Positions 6,919 to 52,388 of a stretch of 64,000 nt of DNA are shown piece by piece. Source of the DNA: Acidobacteriota bacterium. GTDB lineage: Bacteria > Acidobacteriota > Terriglobia > 2-12-FULL-54-10. Positions within the stretch are counted from its first letter, which is position 1. Every line of letters starts with the position of its first letter. Made by a program: the position numbers and the translations under genes. The notes under the pieces are model-generated. The model saw nothing but the letters and a program-made list of their open reading frames with translations, did not search any database and was not told where the DNA came from. The DNA lies in contig SHUM01000001.1 of NCBI GenBank assembly GCA_009691245.1, forward strand, positions 1 through 64,000, read 5' to 3'.

Positions 6919-7440
6919 TCAGTTTTCTACGCGCTCCCATGTGAGAGTGTATTCCGTAGTGCCGGTGGGCGGCGGATCGGCGGTAAGCAGCAGGCGGTTG
7001 CCGGTAAATTTGAAGAAGCGCTTGCGGCTGATGCCCACATCGTTGGGAATGTTGTCCATCTCCACATGGTGAGTGACGTAGCCGCCCGCGCCGTTCACGG
7101 TATACCTGCCACAGTAGGCGTGGAAGTGATCCACGGCGTTCCTGGCCTCGGCCTCGGTGGGCTTGCCGGGTGTCTTCCAGTTCGCGACAGTGGGGTCGGT
7201 CAATGTAGCGCACATGCGGCCCGCTTCGGTATACATGATGTATCCGATGCCCTTCGGGCCATAGACAGGATTGGGGCCGGAGGTGCCGTCAGCCTTGCGC
7301 TGGATGGTGGTGATCAGCTTCCAGGTGCCAATGAACTGCCTCGCGGGATCGTTGGTTGAACTTGACTGGGCCTTCGATTGGACAGCAAGCGAGGTGGTGG
7401 CGATGGCCGCTACGCTGAGCAATAATGATGTGCGCTTCAT
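6919..7440 (-). CDS. secreted lipocalin-like protein
   Basis: 173 residues with a signal peptide (about residues 1-24, ending SKAQ). The mature part opens with FIGTWKL and continues with GYIMYTEAGRM and YCGRYTVN, then alternating short strands. This matches the lipocalin-like family common in acidobacteria and proteobacteria. Ligand unknown. It is monocistronic between two spacers. Confidence 0.7.
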   Translation of the reverse strand: MKRTSLLLSVAAIATTSLAVQSKAQSSSTNDPARQFIGTWKLITTIQRKADGTSGPNPVYGPKGIGYIMYTEAGRMCATLTDPTVANWKTPGKPTEAEARNAVDHFHAYCGRYTVNGAGGYVTHHVEMDNIPNDVGISRKRFFKFTGNRLLLTADPPPTGTTEYTLTWERVEN

Positions 7441-7557
7441 TTTGATCCTTTCAATGACTAGCGAAGTCCGGGTGGATTTGCGATGTCGCCGACATTCGCC
7501 GATTATACCCGAAGCACCCCCGGCCCATGATGTATAACAATGCTATAATGCCGGTTT

Positions 7558-8214
7558 ATGGCTGCTGAAACACTCTGTGCGATCTGTCAGAAACGCAAAC
7601 CTAAGCGCGCTTGTCCCGGCGTGAATGGAAATATTTGCGCGCAGTGCTGCGGCACGGAGCGCGAAGTCTCCATCGATTGCCCACTCGATTGCACCTACCT
7701 GCGCGAGAGCCGCAAGTACGAGCGCGAGAAGCCCACCAAGCTGGACGAACTGCCCTTCAAGGATGTCGCGTTGAGCGACAACTTCGTTTATGAATTCGAG
7801 ATGTTCATCGGGCAGATCGGCTATCACATCATGCACTACGCCCTGCAGAATCCACGCACGGTGGATCAGGAGATCATCGACGCGCTCGACAAGCTGGTGC
7901 GCACCTATCAGACCGAGCAGAGCGGCATCTATTACGAGTCACTTCCGGAGGAGTCCGGAGCGCTGGGACTGTTCCGCGAGGTCAAGCTGTTCATCGACGG
8001 ATTGCAAAAGCAACAACAGGAACGTGGCAACATCGCGGCGGTGAAGACTGGCGACTTGATCCGTTCACTGGTATTTCTGCTGCGCATGGCTTGCGTGAAT
8101 ACCAATGGGCGTCCGCGAGGCCGCTATTTCATCGACTTCCTGCGACTCACTTTCCCGGAGCAGGCCCATGCCCAGGCCCAAGCCAAAGAAGAGCCGCGGC
8201 TCATCGTCCCTTAA
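7558..8214 (+). CDS. conserved hypothetical with N-terminal cysteine cluster
   Basis: 218 residues. Eight cysteines fall in the first 45 residues (C7, C10, C19, C27, C30, C31, C41, C45), enough for two zinc sites. The rest is helical and lacks known motifs. No signal peptide is present, so it is probably cytoplasmic. The ATG follows closely on an AT-rich stretch. The next gene starts 26 bp after its stop and may be co-transcribed. Function not recognised; the zinc-ribbon start suggests nucleic-acid or protein binding. Confidence 0.6.
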   Translation: MAAETLCAICQKRKPKRACPGVNGNICAQCCGTEREVSIDCPLDCTYLRESRKYEREKPTKLDELPFKDVALSDNFVYEFEMFIGQIGYHIMHYALQNPRTVDQEIIDALDKLVRTYQTEQSGIYYESLPEESGALGLFREVKLFIDGLQKQQQERGNIAAVKTGDLIRSLVFLLRMACVNTNGRPRGRYFIDFLRLTFPEQAHAQAQAKEEPRLIVP

Positions 8215-9002: not shown

Positions 9003-9524
9003 ATGATTCGCACCTTTCAGGGAATGATTCCGCAAGTGGCCGCCACGGCTTATGTGGATGAATCGGCGCAGGTGATTGGCGATGTGCATATCGGAGAGCA
9101 CGCTTCCGTCTGGATGAACGTCGTCATGCGCGGCGACGTGAATCACATCCGTATCGGCGCGTACACCAACATTCAGGACAATTCCGTGGTGCATGTTGAG
9201 GAAGGCCTTTATCCCACGATTCTCGGCGATCACATCACCGTGGGCCACAGCGTGCTGCTGCACGGCTGCCGCATCGGCTCACATTGCCTGATCGCCATGG
9301 GTTCCATTGTGCTGAATGACGCAGAGATTGGCGAGGGTTCGGTCATCGCCGCAGGTGCTGTAGTGCCTGAACACGCCGTCATTCCGCCGGGCAGCCTCGT
9401 GATGGGCGTGCCGGGTAAAGTCCGTCGCCAGGTAACCGAGGAGGAGCGCAAGCGCGCCGCGCACGGTTGGGGCGCTTACTTTCGTTTAAAGGGAATGTAT
9501 CTTGCTGATCGCGAGCGAAAATGA
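9003..9524 (+). CDS. gamma-carbonic-anhydrase-like hexapeptide-repeat protein
   Basis: 173 residues forming a left-handed beta-helix. The family signature is present: MRGDVNHIRIGAYTNIQDN, then VVHVE and VGHSVLLHGC, which supply the three histidine metal ligands. Either a gamma carbonic anhydrase or a related metal-dependent enzyme (YrdA/CaiE type). The final 39 bp overlap the 3' end of the convergent GGDEF gene. Confidence 0.85.
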   Translation: MIRTFQGMIPQVAATAYVDESAQVIGDVHIGEHASVWMNVVMRGDVNHIRIGAYTNIQDNSVVHVEEGLYPTILGDHITVGHSVLLHGCRIGSHCLIAMGSIVLNDAEIGEGSVIAAGAVVPEHAVIPPGSLVMGVPGKVRRQVTEEERKRAAHGWGAYFRLKGMYLADRERK

Positions 9525-10661
9525 GCCACCCGCATCTAGTGCCTGCCGGAAGGGAGCACGGAGCTGCGGGGTTTGCGGCAGGACGCCCAAGCCAGCTACG
9601 GCGATATTGTTGCGGGTAGTTTCTTTTACCTGATACATGGCCATGTCAGCTTTCCGGATCAGCGCTTCCTTGTCTTGGGCGTCTTCCGGGAAGGATGCGA
9701 TGCCAAAACTGGCGGTGATGGCGATGTTCAGGCCCTGTTCCTTCAGGAATGTCTGGGTGTTGAGGAGCTTGTGCAGGCGGCGCGCCACATTGACGGCGCT
9801 GCGCTTGGGGGTCTGCGGGAGTAGAATGACAAACTCGTCGCCCCCGTAACGAAAACCGTAGTCGATCAGGCGCAGATGAGCCTTGATACTGTGCCCCAGC
9901 TCCAACAGCAGGCGGCTGCCAGCCAGATGTCCGTGCGTATCGTTCACGCGCTTTAAATAATCCAGGTCGATAAAGATCAGCGAAAACTCATAGTGATAGC
10001 GTGTCGAGCGGTACACCTCGGCATCAAGTATCGAGTGCAAATGCCGGTTGTTGTATAGCTTGGTGCAGTCGTCGGTGATGGTCAATTCGTGGATGCGCTT
10101 CACGTAGCGGGCATTTTCAATCGCAATGGCGGCGAAATCCGCCAGTGCCATCAGCCGGAACAGATCATCCTCACTGAGGTTTAGGTCGTCGGCAAAATTG
10201 ATCAACTCGATGGCGCCCAGCACCTTATCGCGTCCCTTCACCGGGAAGCAGACCACCGAGCGGGTTTCGATCTTGGTAACTTCGTCGAGGCGCTTTATGA
10301 ATCGGGGGTCCTCTGCGACCTTGGGGACAATGACTGGTTCTCCATGTTCAATTACCCAGCCGACTATGCCCTCGCCTGGACGAAGGCGGATTTCCTTTAA
10401 AGTCTCGGCTCCCTCGCCGATGGCGATCTCAAAGTACAGGTCTCCGGATTCCTCGTCCACCAGAATTAGCGACCACGTATCGGGCTTGAAGAAGGCGCTA
10501 ATCTTCTCCATGACAGTTCGCAGAACTTCGCTCAGGTCCAGGGTGGAGGTCAGGGCCTTGCCTACCTCGTTAAAGACCGAGAGTTCCTTGATCTTGCGTT
10601 CGAGTTCCGAGCGATCTTCGCTAATGGCCATCGTCGTATTAGACCTGACAGGTGCATTCAA
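9486..10661 (-). CDS. GAF-GGDEF diguanylate cyclase
   Basis: 391 residues. A GAF sensor domain (about 30-185) is followed by a GGDEF domain (about 195-355) with the intact catalytic RYGGDEF. Five residues before GGDEF is RLID, a complete RxxD inhibitory site, so product feedback by c-di-GMP is expected. No membrane segment is present, so it is a cytosolic sensor. I take the TTG at 10661 as start because AGGA precedes it at good distance; an ATG at 10631 is the alternative. The 3' end overlaps the convergent gene by 39 bp. Confidence 0.85.
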   Translation of the reverse strand: MNAPVRSNTTMAISEDRSELERKIKELSVFNEVGKALTSTLDLSEVLRTVMEKISAFFKPDTWSLILVDEESGDLYFEIAIGEGAETLKEIRLRPGEGIVGWVIEHGEPVIVPKVAEDPRFIKRLDEVTKIETRSVVCFPVKGRDKVLGAIELINFADDLNLSEDDLFRLMALADFAAIAIENARYVKRIHELTITDDCTKLYNNRHLHSILDAEVYRSTRYHYEFSLIFIDLDYLKRVNDTHGHLAGSRLLLELGHSIKAHLRLIDYGFRYGGDEFVILLPQTPKRSAVNVARRLHKLLNTQTFLKEQGLNIAITASFGIASFPEDAQDKEALIRKADMAMYQVKETTRNNIAVAGLGVLPQTPQLRAPFRQALDAGGSFSLAISKIHSL

Positions 10662-10903
10662 TGATAGTCCTGATGATTATATCCTCCGGCTTTGGAGCGG
10701 ACAACGATAGCGTGCATTTCGCTAGTTAGGTACTTGGTTCGTCTTAGGCGACGGGATAGATGAATCCCGGATTCGTCATCTCTGCGGCAATTGGTGGCTC
10801 CGCTTGCTTTTTCAAGGAAAGGAAAATAAAGTAAGGAGTTCGTTCCCAGCCAGCCTGGTCTGGGTAGACAATGGATTTAGATAACTAGTTTTAGAGAGAT
10901 TCC

Positions 10904-37701: not shown

Positions 37702-38811
37702 TTATTTGTTCGCTTCTATTTCCGCTTTATTTACTGCCCACCAATTCTTCCAAAAGCTAATGTACTTCTGTTCGTCTTGGAGGAACGTATCTACTGTCGG
37801 GAAATGCAGCCTGGTTTCTTCGTTGGCATACACAACGGCGGGATTTGACGACGCAAAAGCCATGCTCGTGTAGTTTTCAAGAGTTTGCACGGGGAGGCCA
37901 TTGGCGAACGATGCTATGCCCGCCACTGCTGCGTAGCGCAACTCGGACGAATTGCCGTTAAGCAGTTCGGCAAGAAAAGGAAGAGCTTTCCTGGTGTGAA
38001 TTGCCCTCAGTGCGGCGACTGCTGCGGACCTTAAAGGTTCTGCGCCGCCAGCCATGGTACCAAGCGATTGAATTGCAGCTGCGTCAGAATCACGATAACG
38101 AGCAACTGATCTTGCCAGAGTACTCATCTGCTCGGAGCTGAGCCCCATCTCTCGTCCGTTGCCTAATCCTAACAATGCGCTTCGGTCACCCTTGTCGAGA
38201 AGAAGCCCCAACCCTATTGCTTTGACAGATGGGATGGAAGAATTCAAGAGCCCATTTCCGACCGCCTTAAGCCGGACTGGATCAATGTCCCCGAGCGCCG
38301 CGAGAAACATTTCTCCTGCCCTTGGGGTACTAGGATCTACTATGCCAGAAACAATTTCCTCTATTAGCTTATCTAGCGGTGTTGCATTTGCCGCGCAGGA
38401 AAGTGGCTTAATTGGCAGGTTGATAAAGCTGATATCAAGGGGTATGGAACCGTTCAAGACGGGAAGTATCTTCCAAGCAACTTCTGTCTTCTTCTTAAGG
38501 AAGAAAATCCCTGATTTTCCAGCTAACCCGGTTTCGTTGCCAAGATCGTTCGACGATACCGACCAGCTAGCGATGAAAGTCGCATTTATTTGAGCATCCC
38601 CTTTTATCGATCTGGCAATCAGGAGTGCAACGTCGATCACGTCACCCGACCTTACAACGCTCTGAACTTTAGCTACGACGACTTCATCGGCTTCACTGAG
38701 AAGACGGCCCAGCGGCTTGCCCCCCACCGGATAGCCAAATCCAGGTAGCCCCAAGAACACAAAAACGAGTAGGAGACAGAATACTCTTAAGAACACATTG
38801 CGACTTTTCAT
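37702..38811 (-). CDS. secreted HEAT-repeat-like protein
   Basis: 369 residues with a signal peptide (to about 26). An N-terminal beta part (about 30-140) is followed by helical repeats resembling HEAT/PBS-lyase repeats (LRSAAVAALRAIHTRKALPFLAELL, SELRYAAVAGIASFA). A good GGAGG lies upstream of the ATG at 38811. The gene is visibly poorer in GC than its neighbours and may be acquired. Function unknown. Confidence 0.55.
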   Translation of the reverse strand: MKSRNVFLRVFCLLLVFVFLGLPGFGYPVGGKPLGRLLSEADEVVVAKVQSVVRSGDVIDVALLIARSIKGDAQINATFIASWSVSSNDLGNETGLAGKSGIFFLKKKTEVAWKILPVLNGSIPLDISFINLPIKPLSCAANATPLDKLIEEIVSGIVDPSTPRAGEMFLAALGDIDPVRLKAVGNGLLNSSIPSVKAIGLGLLLDKGDRSALLGLGNGREMGLSSEQMSTLARSVARYRDSDAAAIQSLGTMAGGAEPLRSAAVAALRAIHTRKALPFLAELLNGNSSELRYAAVAGIASFANGLPVQTLENYTSMAFASSNPAVVYANEETRLHFPTVDTFLQDEQKYISFWKNWWAVNKAEIEANK

Positions 38812-39334
38812 TTCCGTTTTCCTCCAGCACTCCGTTAATTCCGCTCGTGTCTATCGTCGGCCGTTGGATGGGACGTGGAGTGACTGAGATTAATGGATAA
38901 GTTTGGCTGTTCCCTTGACATTGGGTCGTAGCACCAGCATCAACGACCAGTTGATAGCTTCCGTTTCCACGCGGTTCTAGTGCTGCGTTTAGATTGACTA
39001 CCGCCCCGGTAGTTGCAGTGTCTGATCCGGCTATTTGCGCGTTGGTTGTGCTGCCGGTAGCGACTAATACAGTTCCACTAGATCCGATAAAGTACAGCCT
39101 CGCCCTAAAAGTTGCCGTCCAAAATATTCGATTGGGATCTGATGACCAAAACACGGACTTACCCTGAACATGATTTCCATTCGTTCGAAACGTGCCAATC
39201 CCGACAAATACCCCTGGACAATCTGTTTGGGCATGGGAAAATGGCAAGAGTGAAGTAAGGACAAGCATCCAAAATCTCAATCTATTCTTTTTTGATACAT
39301 GAGCAGTGGATCGCAGGTTACCCTTATACGACAT
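38693..39334 (-). CDS. secreted hypothetical protein overlapping the next gene
   Basis: 213 residues from the ATG at 39334 (GGAGG 6 bases upstream). Signal peptide ending in SHAQ, then a beta-rich domain with TDCPGVFVGIGTF and GSTTNAQIAGSDTATTG. The last 40 residues overlap the HEAT-like gene by 119 bp, which is unusually long. A lost stop codon or a frameshift near its end is possible. Family not recognised. Confidence 0.45.
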   Translation of the reverse strand: MSYKGNLRSTAHVSKKNRLRFWMLVLTSLLPFSHAQTDCPGVFVGIGTFRTNGNHVQGKSVFWSSDPNRIFWTATFRARLYFIGSSGTVLVATGSTTNAQIAGSDTATTGAVVNLNAALEPRGNGSYQLVVDAGATTQCQGNSQTYPLISVTPRPIQRPTIDTSGINGVLEENGNEKSQCVLKSILSPTRFCVLGATWIWLSGGGQAAGPSSQ

Positions 39335-39460
39335 TCTTACCTCCAGCATATCTCAAATAATATGGAACTGACCAAGGGGGTTAAGTCGTGACGAGTGCCC
39401 CCCCCCGGGGCCGTGTCAAGGTAATTTTTATTAGCGGCTTGGAAGCTGAACGGCGGGGAA

Positions 39461-46307: not shown

Positions 46308-46862
46308 ATGCCTCTACAACTCCAAACTCCCGACGCCGTGGAGCGCGCCAAGCGCGTGGAGTTCATTCTCATGGATGTCGATGGCGTGATGACAGACGGG
46401 CGGATTTATCTGATCCCCGACGGCAGCGGCGGCTGTCGCGAGATGAAAACGTTTGACGTCTCTGACGGCGTGGCCATCACCTTCGCGCATCGCGTGGGCC
46501 TGCGCACCGGCATCCTCACCGGCCGCGCCTCCGACAGCGTTACCTGGCGCGCCAAGGATTTGGGCATCAGCATCGTCGAGCAGGGCAGCCACAACAAGAT
46601 CGAGTCGTACATCAAGCTGCTTGACGAACACGAGCTGACCGATGCGATCCTCTGCTACATCGGCGACGATTGGCAGGACCTGCCCATGATGCGCCGCGCC
46701 GCCCTCGCCGTGGCCCCGGCCAACGCCTGCGATGACGTCAAGAAGGTCGCCCACATCGTGACAGAAAAGTCCGGCGGTCGCGGCGCGGTCCGCGAGGCCA
46801 TCGAGTTCATCCTCAAGGCGCAGAACAAGTGGGACGACGCCGTGAAGCGTTATTTGGATTAG
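46308..46862 (+). CDS. kdsC: KDO-8-phosphate phosphatase
   Basis: 184 residues, HAD fold without cap. ILMDVDGVMTDGRIYL, ILTGRASDSV, and CYIGDDWQDLPMMRRAALAVAPANA are the KdsC motifs. It removes phosphate from KDO-8-P. Ends the kds operon; its stop overlaps the convergent DinB-like gene by 4 bp. Confidence 0.93.
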   Translation: MPLQLQTPDAVERAKRVEFILMDVDGVMTDGRIYLIPDGSGGCREMKTFDVSDGVAITFAHRVGLRTGILTGRASDSVTWRAKDLGISIVEQGSHNKIESYIKLLDEHELTDAILCYIGDDWQDLPMMRRAALAVAPANACDDVKKVAHIVTEKSGGRGAVREAIEFILKAQNKWDDAVKRYLD

Positions 46863-47329
46863 AGTTTCTTGAGCAGTGCGATCTGCCCGGCGTGGTAGAC
46901 GTCGTGGTCGACCACGCCGGCCGCCAGATCACCAAACTTCCACGGCGTGCCCGCGAGCGGTTCCGCCAGCCGAGCATCTTCGATACCACTCAGCACATCC
47001 AGCAACTCAGCCTGACTTCTCTCCAGCCGCGCCAGCGCTGCGTCCCACGCCACCTGCCCCTCGCCCTGCGGTTTGGGCCAATCCACGTTCGCGGGAATCT
47101 CTCCGGCTGGCTCGCCCAGCACGCGGCTGCGCACGATCGACTTCCACGCCAAGATGTGCAGCACGAGTTCAATAATCGAGTGTGCATTGCCGTGCCGCTG
47201 ATGCGCCTGTTTAGCCGTGATGCCCGCCAGCACTTCCTTCACCGCTGGCCCATGCCACGACGGCCCTTCGTAGGCGCGGCGAATCTGTTCCCCGATTCTT
47301 TCGACCTCAACCCGTGCTGCGTTGTTCAT
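46859..47329 (-). CDS. DinB-like protein
   Basis: 156 residues from the ATG at 47329. A four-helix DinB/YfiT type: HSIIELVLHILAWK in the first part and VVDHDVYHAGQIALL at the end supply conserved histidines. Family members bind metal or act as thiol transferases; the role here is unknown. Confidence 0.8.
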   Translation of the reverse strand: MNNAARVEVERIGEQIRRAYEGPSWHGPAVKEVLAGITAKQAHQRHGNAHSIIELVLHILAWKSIVRSRVLGEPAGEIPANVDWPKPQGEGQVAWDAALARLERSQAELLDVLSGIEDARLAEPLAGTPWKFGDLAAGVVDHDVYHAGQIALLKKL

Positions 47330-47387
47330 AAGATAACCAAGTATCGCTAGCAACTGTGGTTAGATTGCAAGATGCTATCGGCCAGGC

Positions 47388-48413
47388 TCAGTATTGAGTA
47401 GACTCCAGATCGAAGCTTGATGGAAAATCAAAGTTTTCGTCTAAAACTTCTAGCAGGTTTATTTGATTTCGCCATAAAGTAGGAGTTTTCTTGGCTGCCA
47501 GCCAAAACAACTTTCTCTGCGAGTCTGTCCCGAACTGCTCAAACAGTAATGGCTCGGAAAAAATTTTAGTATAGACATTTGAAGTCAGAAGTTCTGCCTG
47601 AACAACGCGCTGCCATACAAGCCGTTTTCGGTCCCTTTCAGGACGGTCCGCAAAGAACACCTCAGCTATCTCTATCATATGCTCCGTGTGGTTACGTATT
47701 CTGTACAGGTCCTGTAGTAACCGGTGTGAGGTGCCGGATCGTCCAGTAAAAAGCTCGCAGTGGTTTGCAAATCCATTGGCGTTACATCCTTTGTCGGGAG
47801 GGACCAATGCTTCCAGCGACCTTATACACTGATGCAATCTTTCATCCCCGAATTTTTCCTCAGTTGCAATGCGCCACGCACCAAACCCTCTTCTTAATCG
47901 AAATGTATCATCGCTCTGGTAAACGGATTTTATCGCTGGAAGCATTCCAATGGCCTGCCGAATTTGGTCGACGTTCAAAGGTTTGGCGAAAACGTATGGA
48001 TTCTTCCGCTCAAGAATACGGTCGCTTGATGACACATTGTATAAGTCTCCCCCATACTTCGCTCCCGTTATGAAGAATCCCTTTCCATAGTCTGGAAAAC
48101 CTTGAAGAAAGATTGCACTGAGTAGCATGTGAAGTTCCACTTGCAATTTGTGGAGATGCTGGTAAAGCGGGTCCGGATTGGATATTTCCCTTACAATGCC
48201 CAGTGCGAAGTTGCTGGTTGCAATCTGGCGGGACCGTTCGTGTCCGACCCAGGGAACCCAATCTATTCCGATATCATTATGGGGATTGCAAAGGACGCAG
48301 AATTCACTGCCCAATTCGATCGGACTCGCAAAGTCTGGCACTTTCGTTGCATTTGTAAGAACAACGAAAGAAAATACATGGTTATCGGGAATTGAGAAAC
48401 CACTTCCCATCAT
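47388..48413 (-). CDS. HEPN-motif protein, possible defence ribonuclease
   Basis: 341 residues, no signal peptide. The second half contains a helical stretch (LHQCIRSLEALVPPDKG) and LLQDLYRIRNHTEHM, in which R240-N241-H-T-E-H245 fits the catalytic R-x4-H HEPN motif with the favoured Asn after Arg. The layout resembles Apea-like HEPN proteins. The N half (CVLCNPHN, IDWVPWVG) has no match I can name. The start (MMGSG) abuts the coxM stop directly (TGAATGATG). Its GC is lower than that of the flanks, suggesting acquisition. Activity unproven. Confidence 0.55.
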   Translation of the reverse strand: MMGSGFSIPDNHVFSFVVLTNATKVPDFASPIELGSEFCVLCNPHNDIGIDWVPWVGHERSRQIATSNFALGIVREISNPDPLYQHLHKLQVELHMLLSAIFLQGFPDYGKGFFITGAKYGGDLYNVSSSDRILERKNPYVFAKPLNVDQIRQAIGMLPAIKSVYQSDDTFRLRRGFGAWRIATEEKFGDERLHQCIRSLEALVPPDKGCNANGFANHCELFTGRSGTSHRLLQDLYRIRNHTEHMIEIAEVFFADRPERDRKRLVWQRVVQAELLTSNVYTKIFSEPLLFEQFGTDSQRKLFWLAAKKTPTLWRNQINLLEVLDENFDFPSSFDLESTQY

Positions 48414-49295
48414 TCAACCTCGAGTCCGGGCAAGAGATTTCAGCAGCGCGCGCCGGGTGATCACGCAAGCCATGTCGCGGCGGTAGTCCGCGCTGGCGTG
48501 GATGTCGGAGAGTGGGTCAATGCCGTCGGCGGCATGTTGCGACGCGGAGGCAATTAACGAATCGCCAGCCACTTCACCTAGCAGCTTTGCTTCCACCGTC
48601 ATCGCGCGGTAGGGAACACCGTTGACTCCGGTGATGGCCACGCGAGCGTGCGTGATTTTTTTCGATGCGTCCAATGAAATGAGCGCCGCGGCGCCGGCGA
48701 TGGCGAAGCCGGAGGCCTGCTGGCGCAACTTCACGTAAGCGGTTCCGGTGCGCGGGCCGAAGCGCGCGCGCATGTCCGAGAGACGAACCGCGGTCAGGAT
48801 TTCATCGGGCTGGAGCGCGCTGGTCATCAAGTCCACAAAGAAGTCTTGTGCCGCCACCACGCGTTCGCCGGCCTTGCCGCGAATCACCATCTGCGCGTCC
48901 AAGGCGAGCGCGGCGGCGGGGAAATCCCCCGCGGCGTCGGCGTGGACGAGGCTGCCGCCGATGGTTCCGCGATTGCGCACCTGCACGTCGCCAATCTCCG
49001 CGGCGGTCTCCGCCAAGAGTGGCGCGGCGCGACGCAGCAGCTCCGACCGCTCGATCTCGACATGACGCAGCAAGCTGCCGATCTCAATCGCCGCACCGTG
49101 TTCATGGATGCCGTGCAACTCTTCGAGCCGCCCGATATCCAGCACAAAGCGGGGAAAGACCAGCCGCAACTTCAGCAGCGGGATCAGGCTCTGCCCTCCT
49201 GCGAGCACCTTGGTGTCCTCGGGATGATGGGCGAGGAACTGCAACGCCTCATCGAGGCTGGCCGGGCGGACGTAAGTGAATGGCGCGGGGAACAT
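48414..49295 (-). CDS. coxM: FAD-binding medium subunit of molybdenum hydroxylase
   Basis: 293 residues from the ATG at 49295. FAD-binding motifs KVLAGGQSLIPLLKLRL and VRNRGTIGGSLVHADAAGD are intact. It passes electrons from the large subunit to acceptors. Order S-L-M on this strand. The gap to coxL contains a purine-rich tandem repeat. Confidence 0.92.
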   Translation of the reverse strand: MFPAPFTYVRPASLDEALQFLAHHPEDTKVLAGGQSLIPLLKLRLVFPRFVLDIGRLEELHGIHEHGAAIEIGSLLRHVEIERSELLRRAAPLLAETAAEIGDVQVRNRGTIGGSLVHADAAGDFPAAALALDAQMVIRGKAGERVVAAQDFFVDLMTSALQPDEILTAVRLSDMRARFGPRTGTAYVKLRQQASGFAIAGAAALISLDASKKITHARVAITGVNGVPYRAMTVEAKLLGEVAGDSLIASASQHAADGIDPLSDIHASADYRRDMACVITRRALLKSLARTRG

Positions 49296-49300
49296 AAGAG

Positions 49301-49442
49301 CTAGAAGACAGGAGACAGAAGACAGGAGACAGAATGAAAACCAGGTCGCCACGCCGTCAATCTGCGTGCGATGAATGCGCCTTGATGAAGATTGGGTGCG
49401 CTCATATTTTGACTCCTGTCTCCTGACTTCTGTCTTCTGCTG
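49301..49442. repeat. gacagaag/aggagac tandem repeat arms
   Basis: agacaggagacagaagacag and neighbours at about 49304-49332 face an inverted copy at 49410-49442 (cctgtctcctgacttctgtc). The second arm is inside the 3' end of coxL. Confidence 0.7.
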
Positions 49443-51840
49443 TTCTCATCTCCTTCCAGATTTTTTCGGGCTTCAGGGGCATGTCGATGTGGCGCACGCC
49501 GAAAGGCGCGAGGGCGTCCATCACCGCGTTGACCACGGCGGGCGTGGCGCCGATCGTGCCAGACTCGCCCACGCCTTTCACGCCGAGCAGATTGGCCTCG
49601 GTCGGCGTGTTGCTGCGCGTGCAGTGGTAGGGCGGAGTGTGCGCGGCGTGCGGCAGCGCGTAGTCCATGAACTCGCCGGTCAGCATCTGCCCGTTCTCGT
49701 CGAAGAGCATCTCTTCGTAGAGCGCCTGGCCGATGCCCTGCGCGATGCCGCCCTGAATTTGCCCCTCCACCAGGAGCGGATTGATCACGCGACCGCAATC
49801 GTCAACGGCGTAATAGTCGAGCAGCTTCACCTCGCCGGTGTCGCGGTCCACCTCCACCACGCACAGGTGCGCGCCGCTGGGGAAGGTGAGCGAGCGCGGG
49901 TTGTAGAAGCTGTTGGCTTCCAGGCCCGGTTCGACGCCACGCGGCAGATGGCGTGCGCGATACGCTGCTTGCGCCACCTCATCAATGGTTATTGATTTGC
50001 TCGGCGCGCCCTTTACGAGCAACTCTCCGCCACGCCAGATCATGCGTTCAGGTTTAGTCTCCAGCAGGTGCGCGGCGATGGCGGTGATCTTCTCCTTCAG
50101 CTTGCGGCAGGAGAGCAGGATCGCGCTGCCGCCCACCGATGTGTTGCGGCTCCCGAATGTCCCGATGCCGGCCGCCACTACCAGAGTATCGCCGTGGATC
50201 ACCGCGATGCGATCCATCGGCACGCCCAACTCATCGGCCACAATCTGCGAGAAGGTGGTCTCTTCACCCTGCCCGTGCGGTGATGTGCCGGTGAGAACTG
50301 TAACGCGTCCCGACGGCTCGACGCGCACCGTGGCGGACTCCCATCCTCCGCCGGGAGGCTTGCCGCTGGTGGGGCCGGGGCCGCAGTTCTCGACATAGCT
50401 GGCGATGCCGATGCCCATCAGCCGGCCCTCGGCGCGCCACGCCGCCTGCTTGCGGCGCAAATCGTCGTAGCCCGCCGCATCCATCACGGAGCGCAGGTCG
50501 CGCGGGTAGTTGCCCGTATCATAGACGCGGCCCGTCGGCGTGATGAACGGCAGGTCCTGCGGAGTGATCAAATTTTTGCGGCGCAGCGCCACCGGGTCCA
50601 TACCCATCTGCTGCGCGGCGATGTCCATCATGCGCTCGATCAGGAAAATCGCCTCGGGCCGCCCCGCGCCGCGATAGGCGTCAGTAGACATCTTGTTGGT
50701 GAAGACTTCAGTTACGCCGAAGGAGTACGCCGGAATCTTATAGCAGCCCGAGCCGAGGTTCGCCGTGGAAGTGGGACCGACGGCGGTGAACATATGGAAG
50801 TAGGCTCCGGCATCAAAGATGCTCCGGCAGCGCATGCCGCGGATGCGCCCGTCTTTGGCGAACGCCATCTCCACCTTCTGCACCTGAGCACGACCATGCG
50901 TGGTGGTCCGCATATTCTCGCGCCGCGACTCGGCCCACTTCACGGGCCGACGCAGCTTCATCGCCAGAAATGGCGCGAGCGCGTCTTCGGGATAAACGTT
51001 CAGCTTGCTGCCGAAGCCGCCGCCGACGTCCGGCGCGATCACGCGCATACGATTGTCGGGAATCTGCAAAGTGATCGCGAGAAAATTGCGTAACAAGTGC
51101 GGGATCTGCGTGGAAGTCCACAGCGTGAGCGTGCCGTCGCTTGGCTGGAAACTCGCGAGTACCGCGCGGCACTCCATGGCGGAGGGGGCCAGCCGCTGAT
51201 TCACGATGCGCGCTTTCACGATGTGATCGGCGTGGCGAAATGCTTCCAGCACATCTCCGGAAACTACGGAGTAGGTTCCGCCAACATTGTTTTGCAGTTC
51301 TTCGTGCAGGCGCGGCGCGTCTTTCTCCAAGGCTTTCTCGGCGTCGATCACTACCGGCAGCGGCTCGTACTCAATATCAATCAATTCGACTGCGTCGCGC
51401 GCCGTGTAAGCGTCTTCGGCCACCACGGCGGCCACTGGTTCACCCGCATACCGCACGCGGTCCACGGCAAGGAAGTAATGCAGCGGGTACTTGAAATCAG
51501 GCATGCGCGCCAGGACAGGAATGACGCCGAGCGCATCCTTCACGTCCGGGCCGGTCAGAACATCGAGTACGCCCGGTAGCGCGCGAGCACGGCTGGCATC
51601 GACGCGTACGATGCGGGCGTGCGCGTAGGGGCTGCGCAGCATCGCCATGTGGACGGTGTCGGCCAGACGAATGTCATCGACGAACTGTCCCTGCCCGGTG
51701 AGTAGGCGCTGGTCCTCCTTGCGCAGAATGGACTGGCCGGAGAATGGTGCGGAGCGAGTCGCCGCTGTCTTTGCAGGGGATGCGCCGTTGCTTCGCTTCG
51801 CGGAATTGGTTTTGCGGGCGGGACGCTTGCTGGTGGCCAT
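49402..51840 (-). CDS. coxL: molybdopterin large subunit, form II CoxL-like
   Basis: 812 residues. The N-terminal Lys/Ala-rich tail of about 35 residues is followed by the molybdenum hydroxylase chain: RYAGEPVAAVVAE, APDVGGGFGSKLNVYPED, and near the end GVGESGTIGATPAVVNAV. The active-site loop reads AYRGAGR, the form II signature, not AYXCSFR of true form I CO dehydrogenases. Substrate may be CO, aldehydes or purines; this cannot be decided. The last 12 residues and the stop are encoded by a tandem repeat. Confidence 0.92.
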   Translation of the reverse strand: MATSKRPARKTNSAKRSNGASPAKTAATRSAPFSGQSILRKEDQRLLTGQGQFVDDIRLADTVHMAMLRSPYAHARIVRVDASRARALPGVLDVLTGPDVKDALGVIPVLARMPDFKYPLHYFLAVDRVRYAGEPVAAVVAEDAYTARDAVELIDIEYEPLPVVIDAEKALEKDAPRLHEELQNNVGGTYSVVSGDVLEAFRHADHIVKARIVNQRLAPSAMECRAVLASFQPSDGTLTLWTSTQIPHLLRNFLAITLQIPDNRMRVIAPDVGGGFGSKLNVYPEDALAPFLAMKLRRPVKWAESRRENMRTTTHGRAQVQKVEMAFAKDGRIRGMRCRSIFDAGAYFHMFTAVGPTSTANLGSGCYKIPAYSFGVTEVFTNKMSTDAYRGAGRPEAIFLIERMMDIAAQQMGMDPVALRRKNLITPQDLPFITPTGRVYDTGNYPRDLRSVMDAAGYDDLRRKQAAWRAEGRLMGIGIASYVENCGPGPTSGKPPGGGWESATVRVEPSGRVTVLTGTSPHGQGEETTFSQIVADELGVPMDRIAVIHGDTLVVAAGIGTFGSRNTSVGGSAILLSCRKLKEKITAIAAHLLETKPERMIWRGGELLVKGAPSKSITIDEVAQAAYRARHLPRGVEPGLEANSFYNPRSLTFPSGAHLCVVEVDRDTGEVKLLDYYAVDDCGRVINPLLVEGQIQGGIAQGIGQALYEEMLFDENGQMLTGEFMDYALPHAAHTPPYHCTRSNTPTEANLLGVKGVGESGTIGATPAVVNAVMDALAPFGVRHIDMPLKPEKIWKEMRTAEDRSQETGVKI

Positions 51841-51842
51841 GG

Positions 51843-52388
51843 TTATTTACTGGCCTCCTGGTCTTTCTTGCTCGCGATTGCCTTGCTGGGAGCCGCCGCA
51901 GGCAGGGATTGGGCCGCGCGGCGCACCGCCGCGATGATCATCTGGTATCCAGTGCAGCGGCAGAGATTGCCATCGATGCCGCGGCAAATTTCATCGTCGG
52001 AGGGATGTGGATGATGAGTCAACAGATCGTGAGCGGCCATCAGCATTCCCGGCGTGCAGAAACCGCACTGCAAGCCGTGTTCTTCCTTGAAGGCACGCTG
52101 CAGCGGATCGAGCGTGCCGGCTACAGCGAGCGACTCAACGGTCCGCACCTCGCATTCGTCGGCTTGCGCGGTCAGGAGCAGGCAGGACTTCACCGCCTCG
52201 CCGTTCAGATGAATCGTGCAGGCGCCGCACAGTCCGGTCTCGCAGCCAATGTGCGTGCCCGTGAGGCCCAACCCGTCGCGCAGATAATGGACCAACAGCA
52301 GGCGCGGCTCCACCTCGGAGCGATGCCGCACGCCATTCACGCTAATCTCGACGGGAATTTTCAAGCTGTCTCCGCAATTGGTTGGCAC
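51843..52388 (-). CDS. coxS: 2Fe-2S small subunit of molybdenum hydroxylase
   Basis: 181 residues, GTG start. The plant-type 2Fe-2S cysteines (HIGCETGLCGACTIHLNG) and the second cluster (GLQCGFCTPGM, GNLCRCTGYQ) are complete. A Lys/Ala-rich tail of about 20 residues ends the protein. First gene of coxS-coxL-coxM; 2 bp separate it from coxL. Confidence 0.93.
   Translation of the reverse strand: MPTNCGDSLKIPVEISVNGVRHRSEVEPRLLLVHYLRDGLGLTGTHIGCETGLCGACTIHLNGEAVKSCLLLTAQADECEVRTVESLAVAGTLDPLQRAFKEEHGLQCGFCTPGMLMAAHDLLTHHPHPSDDEICRGIDGNLCRCTGYQMIIAAVRRAAQSLPAAAPSKAIASKKDQEASK

Follow-up and report, generated by a model that had tools for sequence, protein, structure and literature searches.

We identified a gene encoding a predicted two-domain HEPN protein directly behind a cox operon in an Acidobacteriota contig. 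The gene lies at positions 47388..48413 on the minus strand of the window (the whole 64,000-nucleotide stretch that was analysed), and it is supported by its open reading frame and by relatives in other genomes. Its product of 341 amino acids combines an N-terminal alpha/beta domain with a mainly helical C-terminal half. The assignment of this C-terminal half as an HEPN domain with an intact Rx4H site is well supported by the invariance of the motif, its position and the predicted fold, and we rate the family and its architecture as new within the HEPN superfamily. The protein is probably a single-gene, sensor-gated HEPN endoribonuclease, whose predicted RNase activity would serve abortive phage defence. 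Its gene would ride as a passenger behind a form II cox operon, to which its translation is probably coupled.

Predicted fold and conserved residues

The initial annotation had given the open reading frame, its strand, its length and the sequence R240-N-H-T-E-H245 exactly, and had proposed an HEPN protein. The putative catalytic motif (47679..47696, minus strand) on its own is at chance level and carries no weight: when the window protein was shuffled 2000 times, the fraction of sequences containing a match was 0.9065 for Rx4-6H and 0.1305 for R[NDHS]x3H. It gains significance because R240, E244 and H245 are identical in all 21 rows of the family alignment that cover the motif site. These rows represent 20 sites, with L023 and L028 counted as one and the N-terminal-only fragments L010 and L072 left out. 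A second conserved patch, R192-L-H194-x3-R198-x2-E201 (47811..47840, minus strand), occupies helix 189-201. Its R192, H194 and R198 are also invariant (21/21), and E201 is conserved in 20 of the 21 rows and replaced by D in a plasmid copy. The residue after R240 is S in 20/21 rows and N in the window copy only. The N-terminal domain is present in 20 of the 21 copies, with an interruption or a change of frame in L022, L027 and L031. Conserved positions in this domain include F14 (16/17), W52 (17/17), G57 (18/18) and G117 (19/19).

An AlphaFold2 model built from a 12-row alignment (pLDDT 85.6, pTM 0.87) is mainly helical over residues 148-293, and the HEPN domain was delimited by these helices (47535..47972, minus strand); HEPN structures align over residues 163-299. 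The motif falls at the end of helix 227-244, with R240 inside this helix and H245 in the loop after it. A helix-bearing insert lies between helix 189-201 and the motif helix. E201 is at the end of helix 189-201, and the window protein has no K or R four residues later. For the HEPN superfamily, PMC3710099 describes an Rx4-6H motif where helix 3 ends or the next loop starts, a polar residue after the R that is mostly N, D or H, a conserved acidic residue in helix 2 that is typically part of Ex3[KR], and an insert between helices 2 and 3. The family matches this description in its Rx4H ending helix 3, the polar residue after the R, the insert and the four-helix core, and the acidic residue in helix 2 agrees with it in part, with no Ex3[KR] in the window protein. 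However, it adds the invariant R-x-H-x3-R in helix 2, and it almost always carries S after the R.

Structural comparison with VIA-align placed HEPN proteins in all five best rows (4nqf, Z 6.4; 2hsb, 6.1; 3o10, 5.6; 7bxo, 4.9; 6m6w, 4.3), with 101-111 residues aligned at rmsd 3.2-4.1. The next row is an unrelated structure at Z 4.0, and no other listed entry scores higher. A Z of about 6 is within the range for which VIA-align warns that a common helical arrangement can give such values, and Foldseek with the whole model against the PDB gave no match at E<=0.001. For these two reasons the case for HEPN is built on the fold, the place of the motif and its invariance in combination. A helical protein whose Rx4H arose by chance would be consistent with the shuffling result, the Foldseek result and the missing HMM match described below. 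However, the 21/21 invariance, the canonical position of the motif and the HEPN identity of all five best VIA-align rows make this explanation highly improbable, and the HEPN call of the initial annotation stands.

The N-terminal domain (residues 1-135; 48009..48413, minus strand) was delimited from the AlphaFold2 models and from conservation. Modelled alone, it has a mixed alpha/beta fold (pLDDT 82). Foldseek with this domain against PDB and BFVD found no match at E<=0.001. VIA found no match at Z>=5; its best Z was 4.9, in a mixed list that includes several TBP chains. This list is weak and mixed, and it was therefore not used as a fold assignment. The domain is a candidate sensor, a role that we offer as a guess because there is no convincing fold match. 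The family is thus defined by a fixed putative catalytic signature joined to a companion domain of no assigned fold, and if the protein is a sensor-gated RNase, it is this domain that would reveal what is sensed.

Relation to known HEPN families and distribution

The window protein has no match in Pfam (E<=1), NCBIfam or PADLOC. The PHROGs search returned one meaningless match at 0.23, and no match in the PDB sequence search was better than E 0.6 (none at E<=0.1). When four members were compared with Pfam, only stray single-member matches and no Pfam HEPN model were found. Pfam and PADLOC searches over 12 members (E<=10) likewise gave stray single-member matches at 0.014 or worse and no Pfam HEPN model. 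The initial annotation had named HMM searches and conservation of the Arg and His as tests of its HEPN call; the former returned no match, and the latter are the invariant residues described above. The HEPN superfamily would gain a family that is unrecognised by Pfam-A, NCBIfam, PADLOC and PHROGs, and scanners built on those models miss it. In a non-exhaustive search of the literature on HEPN RNases and anti-phage defence, no title or abstract opening among the papers listed describes the present family.

An Apea-like protein had been suggested, and we rejected this candidate since PF18739 is matched neither by the window protein (E<=1) nor by any of the 12 members (E<=10); PF18739 also has no match in genome G000. 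Profile-profile comparisons with Apea (two sequences, one truncated) and with RiboL-PSP HEPN (nine sequences, at least one in the wrong frame) were negative (probability about 0.1%), and both are weak tests. ApeA, or HEPN_Apea (PF18739), is similar in being an HEPN protein with a large N-terminal part, and its genes are embedded in R-M operons of epsilonproteobacteria, according to PMC3710099. However, ApeA-NTD1 is about 300 amino acids long and mostly beta in that account, whereas the N-terminal domain described here has about 135 residues and is mixed alpha/beta.

Two of the best structural matches, 7bxo and 6m6w, are HepT of HEPN-MNT, aligned over 101 and 103 residues respectively. HepT is a solitary HEPN, whereas the window protein has two domains. 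Moreover, the window copy has no nucleotidyltransferase gene beside it as in HEPN-MNT (type VII): its neighbours encode CoxM and a DinB-superfamily protein, and such a gene is found near L033 only. RNase LS (RnlA) and LsoA share with the window protein the fusion of HEPN to another fold, and some RNase LS proteins carry a TBP-like domain (PMC3710099). The TBP chains among the N-domain matches are at Z 3.8 and below, too weak to trust as a link to this domain.

The distribution of the family is sparse and scattered over unrelated genomic sites. The window protein has a single match in its own genome. Of 101 nearby genomes, its own included, four contain a member of the family. Profile searches detected members in 7 of 396 genomes of the phylum and in 8 of 399 of the class, in each case counting the genome itself and one fragment. 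A species-level genome collection yielded 15 loci, at least three of them on contigs already found. Among plasmids there is one record, a conjugative Bradyrhizobium plasmid, which was retrieved with three different queries. No family copies were found on phage records or viral contigs, and a genome-contig scan with the single window protein as query found no relatives. Judged from the labels in the tree and from the plasmid record, the family is present in Acidobacteriota, Nitrospirota, Nitrospinota, Myxococcota, Methylomirabilota and Pseudomonadota. Sequence identity between the window protein and its aligned relatives is 20-34%.

The slot between coxM and kdsC

The HEPN gene follows coxS (encoding the [2Fe-2S] small subunit; 51843..52388), coxL (49402..51840) and coxM (encoding the FAD-binding medium subunit; 48414..49352). 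A DinB-superfamily gene (46859..47353; PF12867, 1.8e-15) begins 34 bp downstream of it and has no homologue near other family sites. All of these genes are on the minus strand and face a kdsC-like phosphatase gene, named by eye (46308..46862, plus strand), so that the window order is coxS-coxL-coxM-HEPN-DinB facing kdsC. The initial annotation had recognised a cox operon, and the three subunit genes are indeed present. However, the S-L-M order and the AYRGAGR signature of CoxL identify the operon (48414-52388) as form II, which is described in PMC7645674 as a putative CO dehydrogenase of uncertain function. CO oxidation by the window operon is uncertain for this reason.

As had been noticed before, the HEPN start touches the coxM stop: the gene begins with ATGATG directly after the TGA. 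A Shine-Dalgarno-like GAGG, whose role we infer, lies within the 3' end of coxM (48418..48421, minus strand), 4 nucleotides from the first ATG and 7 from the second. A promoter and terminator scan performed at chance level, and the minus strand of 46800-49000 showed no promoter-like site. The abutting stop and start support coupling of the HEPN gene to expression of the cox operon, and the proposal that it borrows the operon's expression agrees with this gene anatomy.

The lower GC of the gene relative to its neighbours was also confirmed (46% versus 62-64%). Its GC is 0.459, compared to 0.641 for coxM, 0.620 for the DinB gene and 0.625 for kdsC, and it is the lowest among the 59 open reading frames listed for the window. 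Contamination or an assembly artefact was considered as the cause and dropped, since a sister copy lies between the same flanks in another MAG; in addition, six of ten relatives have GC at least 5 points below that of their own loci. A second low-GC stretch occurs in the window at 37702-39349 (0.48-0.50), with secreted-looking open reading frames.

The slot bounded by coxM and kdsC exchanges cargo among relatives. In G001, which belongs to the same genus and has a 93% identical CoxM, the slot holds a GNAT acetyltransferase gene (8.8e-15; L060 3157-3657), and the HEPN gene is absent from both the slot and the genome (82% complete). The G003 slot (L061 1875-3022) contains an SMP-30/gluconolactonase-type gene read in two frames (2.2e-37 and 3.9e-7). 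In G006 the coxM and kdsC matches are 77 bases apart, and in G002 and G004 no coxM match was found next to kdsC. In G005, a member of the same family of bacteria, the slot (L012 10527-11744) carries an HEPN gene behind a C-terminal SMP-30-type remnant (5.6e-7); this copy is frameshifted, with its N-terminal part in another frame. Variable presence in close relatives, which had been proposed as a check, is supported by these genomes. No direct repeats were found in 46700-49000 and no target-site duplication was seen.

The window and G005 proteins form a sister pair in the tree (support 99/98). Since both sisters are flanked by the same genes, the common ancestor of the two genomes probably already had the HEPN gene in the slot, and the original description of a gene inserted behind the operon is not supported in the sense of a recent event. 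The slot offers a natural before-and-after comparison within one family of bacteria.

This shared location, together with the stop-start coupling to coxM, would also be expected of a regulatory RNase of the host operon that acts in stress control by trimming or degrading mRNA, either that of cox or mRNA in general. However, cox homologues occur within 6 kb of the gene at no site other than G005 (blastp, E<=1e-10). Even in G005, the SMP-30 remnant separates coxM from the HEPN gene, which is itself frameshifted, and G001 has the operon without the HEPN gene. Such a regulator is therefore very unlikely.

Damage is frequent in the family. Five of the 21 copies look damaged, some perhaps by assembly error where the sequences are drafts. 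The copies in G005 (L022) and L031 are frameshifted, L027 has two in-frame stops, and the C-terminal end of L030 departs from the family. L029 has lost the N-terminal half of its N-domain or more, replaced by transposase DNA. The DDE transposase coding DNA that abuts this copy (L029 1202-1651; 3.9e-15, IS630-like by eye) gives the appearance of a break by an insertion sequence. This proportion of damaged copies fits a costly gene that is gained and lost, although it could also be read as absence of function or as assembly errors. The window gene might accordingly be a passenger without function or in decay, of foreign origin and low GC, whose product has an HEPN-like fold but no present role. 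The frameshifted sister, the four other damaged copies and the long branch on which the window copy is flagged in the tree (1.73) are consistent with such decay, but the window copy has a full-length open frame in which every invariant active-site residue is intact. We regard decay as quite unlikely.

Neighbourhoods and candidate function

Known or candidate defence genes are found near four of the 20 sites, the window not among them; this is a raw count with no base rate alongside. At the other 16 sites, window included, no known defence gene was found, and most neighbours there were judged by eye. Family scans covered nine window proteins, ten proteins from the neighbourhoods of five loci and another ten open reading frames, and the remaining neighbours were judged by eye. 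At L021, L025, L030, L031 and L033 the locus ends at most 650 bases from the gene on one side.

Two of the four sites carry type III R-M genes. At L021 the flanking genes are one for a methylase (MTase_III, 4.2e-185) and one that matches REase_III weakly (1.2e-7). At G470 a helicase-nuclease (REase_III, 1.4e-29) accompanies a methylase that is read in two frames (N6_N4_Mtase, 1.7e-30 and 1.9e-8). The R-M genes are on opposite sides of the HEPN gene at the two sites, and the HEPN proteins are 66% identical, compared to 24-40% for their R-M neighbours. At L026 the neighbours include a PDC-S50 candidate defence gene (6.9e-89) and a gene for an AriAB-like ATPase (3.9e-24). On the Bradyrhizobium plasmid, genes annotated as HEPN/Toprim, AbiV and CBASS lie no more than about 6 kb from the family copy. 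These sites make the single-gene defence role of the initial annotation plausible, but PADLOC found no match among the nine flanking window proteins.

The only adjacent partners that recur across unrelated sites are the type III R-M pair (blastp at E<=1e-10, neighbours up to 6 kb away). Neighbours at unrelated sites also gave six weak pairwise matches (by eye, transposase-like, SDR and TonB-type pairs and others), which were not counted as partners, since none is adjacent to the gene at both sites. A conserved antitoxin was dropped as a candidate because no other neighbour recurs, and for the same reason the gene is unlikely to have a dedicated antitoxin of ordinary size. The comparison used proteins of at least 70 amino acids, so shorter or very diverged antitoxins would escape it.

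These observations bear on whether the protein is an ordinary growth-arrest toxin of a toxin-antitoxin module, neutralised either by an unlinked factor or by a neighbour, for which the DinB-superfamily protein would be a candidate. HEPN toxins occur commonly in such modules (PMC3710099), and the DinB gene follows closely on the same strand. Toxin-type neighbours also occur at two sites. One flank of the G041 copy (L014) has a PIN-domain gene (PF10130, 6.3e-38; 9128-9637), and L033 has a divergent nucleotidyltransferase gene of MNT-antitoxin type about 220 bp upstream of the HEPN gene (7195-7572; PF01909, 4.8e-11). However, the missing recurrent partner, the lack of a DinB gene beside the G005 sister copy, and the presence of the N-domain together with the HEPN domain in all but one of the 21 copies argue against a toxin, and we consider it unlikely.

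We favour instead the sensor-gated RNase. HEPN RNases generally act as homodimers, and the present protein may do so as well. The N-terminal domain would keep the RNase off until a cue is sensed, most likely phage infection or a related stress. Once triggered, the HEPN domain would cut RNA without metal and thereby arrest the cell. No partner gene would be needed, and the cox operon would supply expression only, through the stop-start coupling to coxM. More tentatively, we propose that the protein represents a new kind of single-gene immune effector. It would join a previously undescribed alpha/beta sensor to an HEPN RNase, act free of partners and move among unrelated sites, some of them near type III R-M or CBASS genes and one on a conjugative plasmid. 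Here it may have settled at the end of the form II cox operon, in a slot whose cargo is exchanged, with its translation coupled to that of the operon.

Several neighbouring features were observed in addition. In L028 a 581-amino-acid open reading frame (9113-10858), with no Pfam or PADLOC match, follows the gene and is lacking in the close relative L023. On the other side of the G041 copy, a 307-amino-acid open reading frame (L014 11026-11949), also with no Pfam or PADLOC match, contains VRNCVVH and could be HEPN. Finally, the regions L021 405-7759 and L015 2739-10318 are two diverged type III R-M-like systems with a family member on opposite flanks, and in both a small HEPN-like gene precedes the helicase (Pfam HEPN, 0.00027 in L021, with a homologue in L015).
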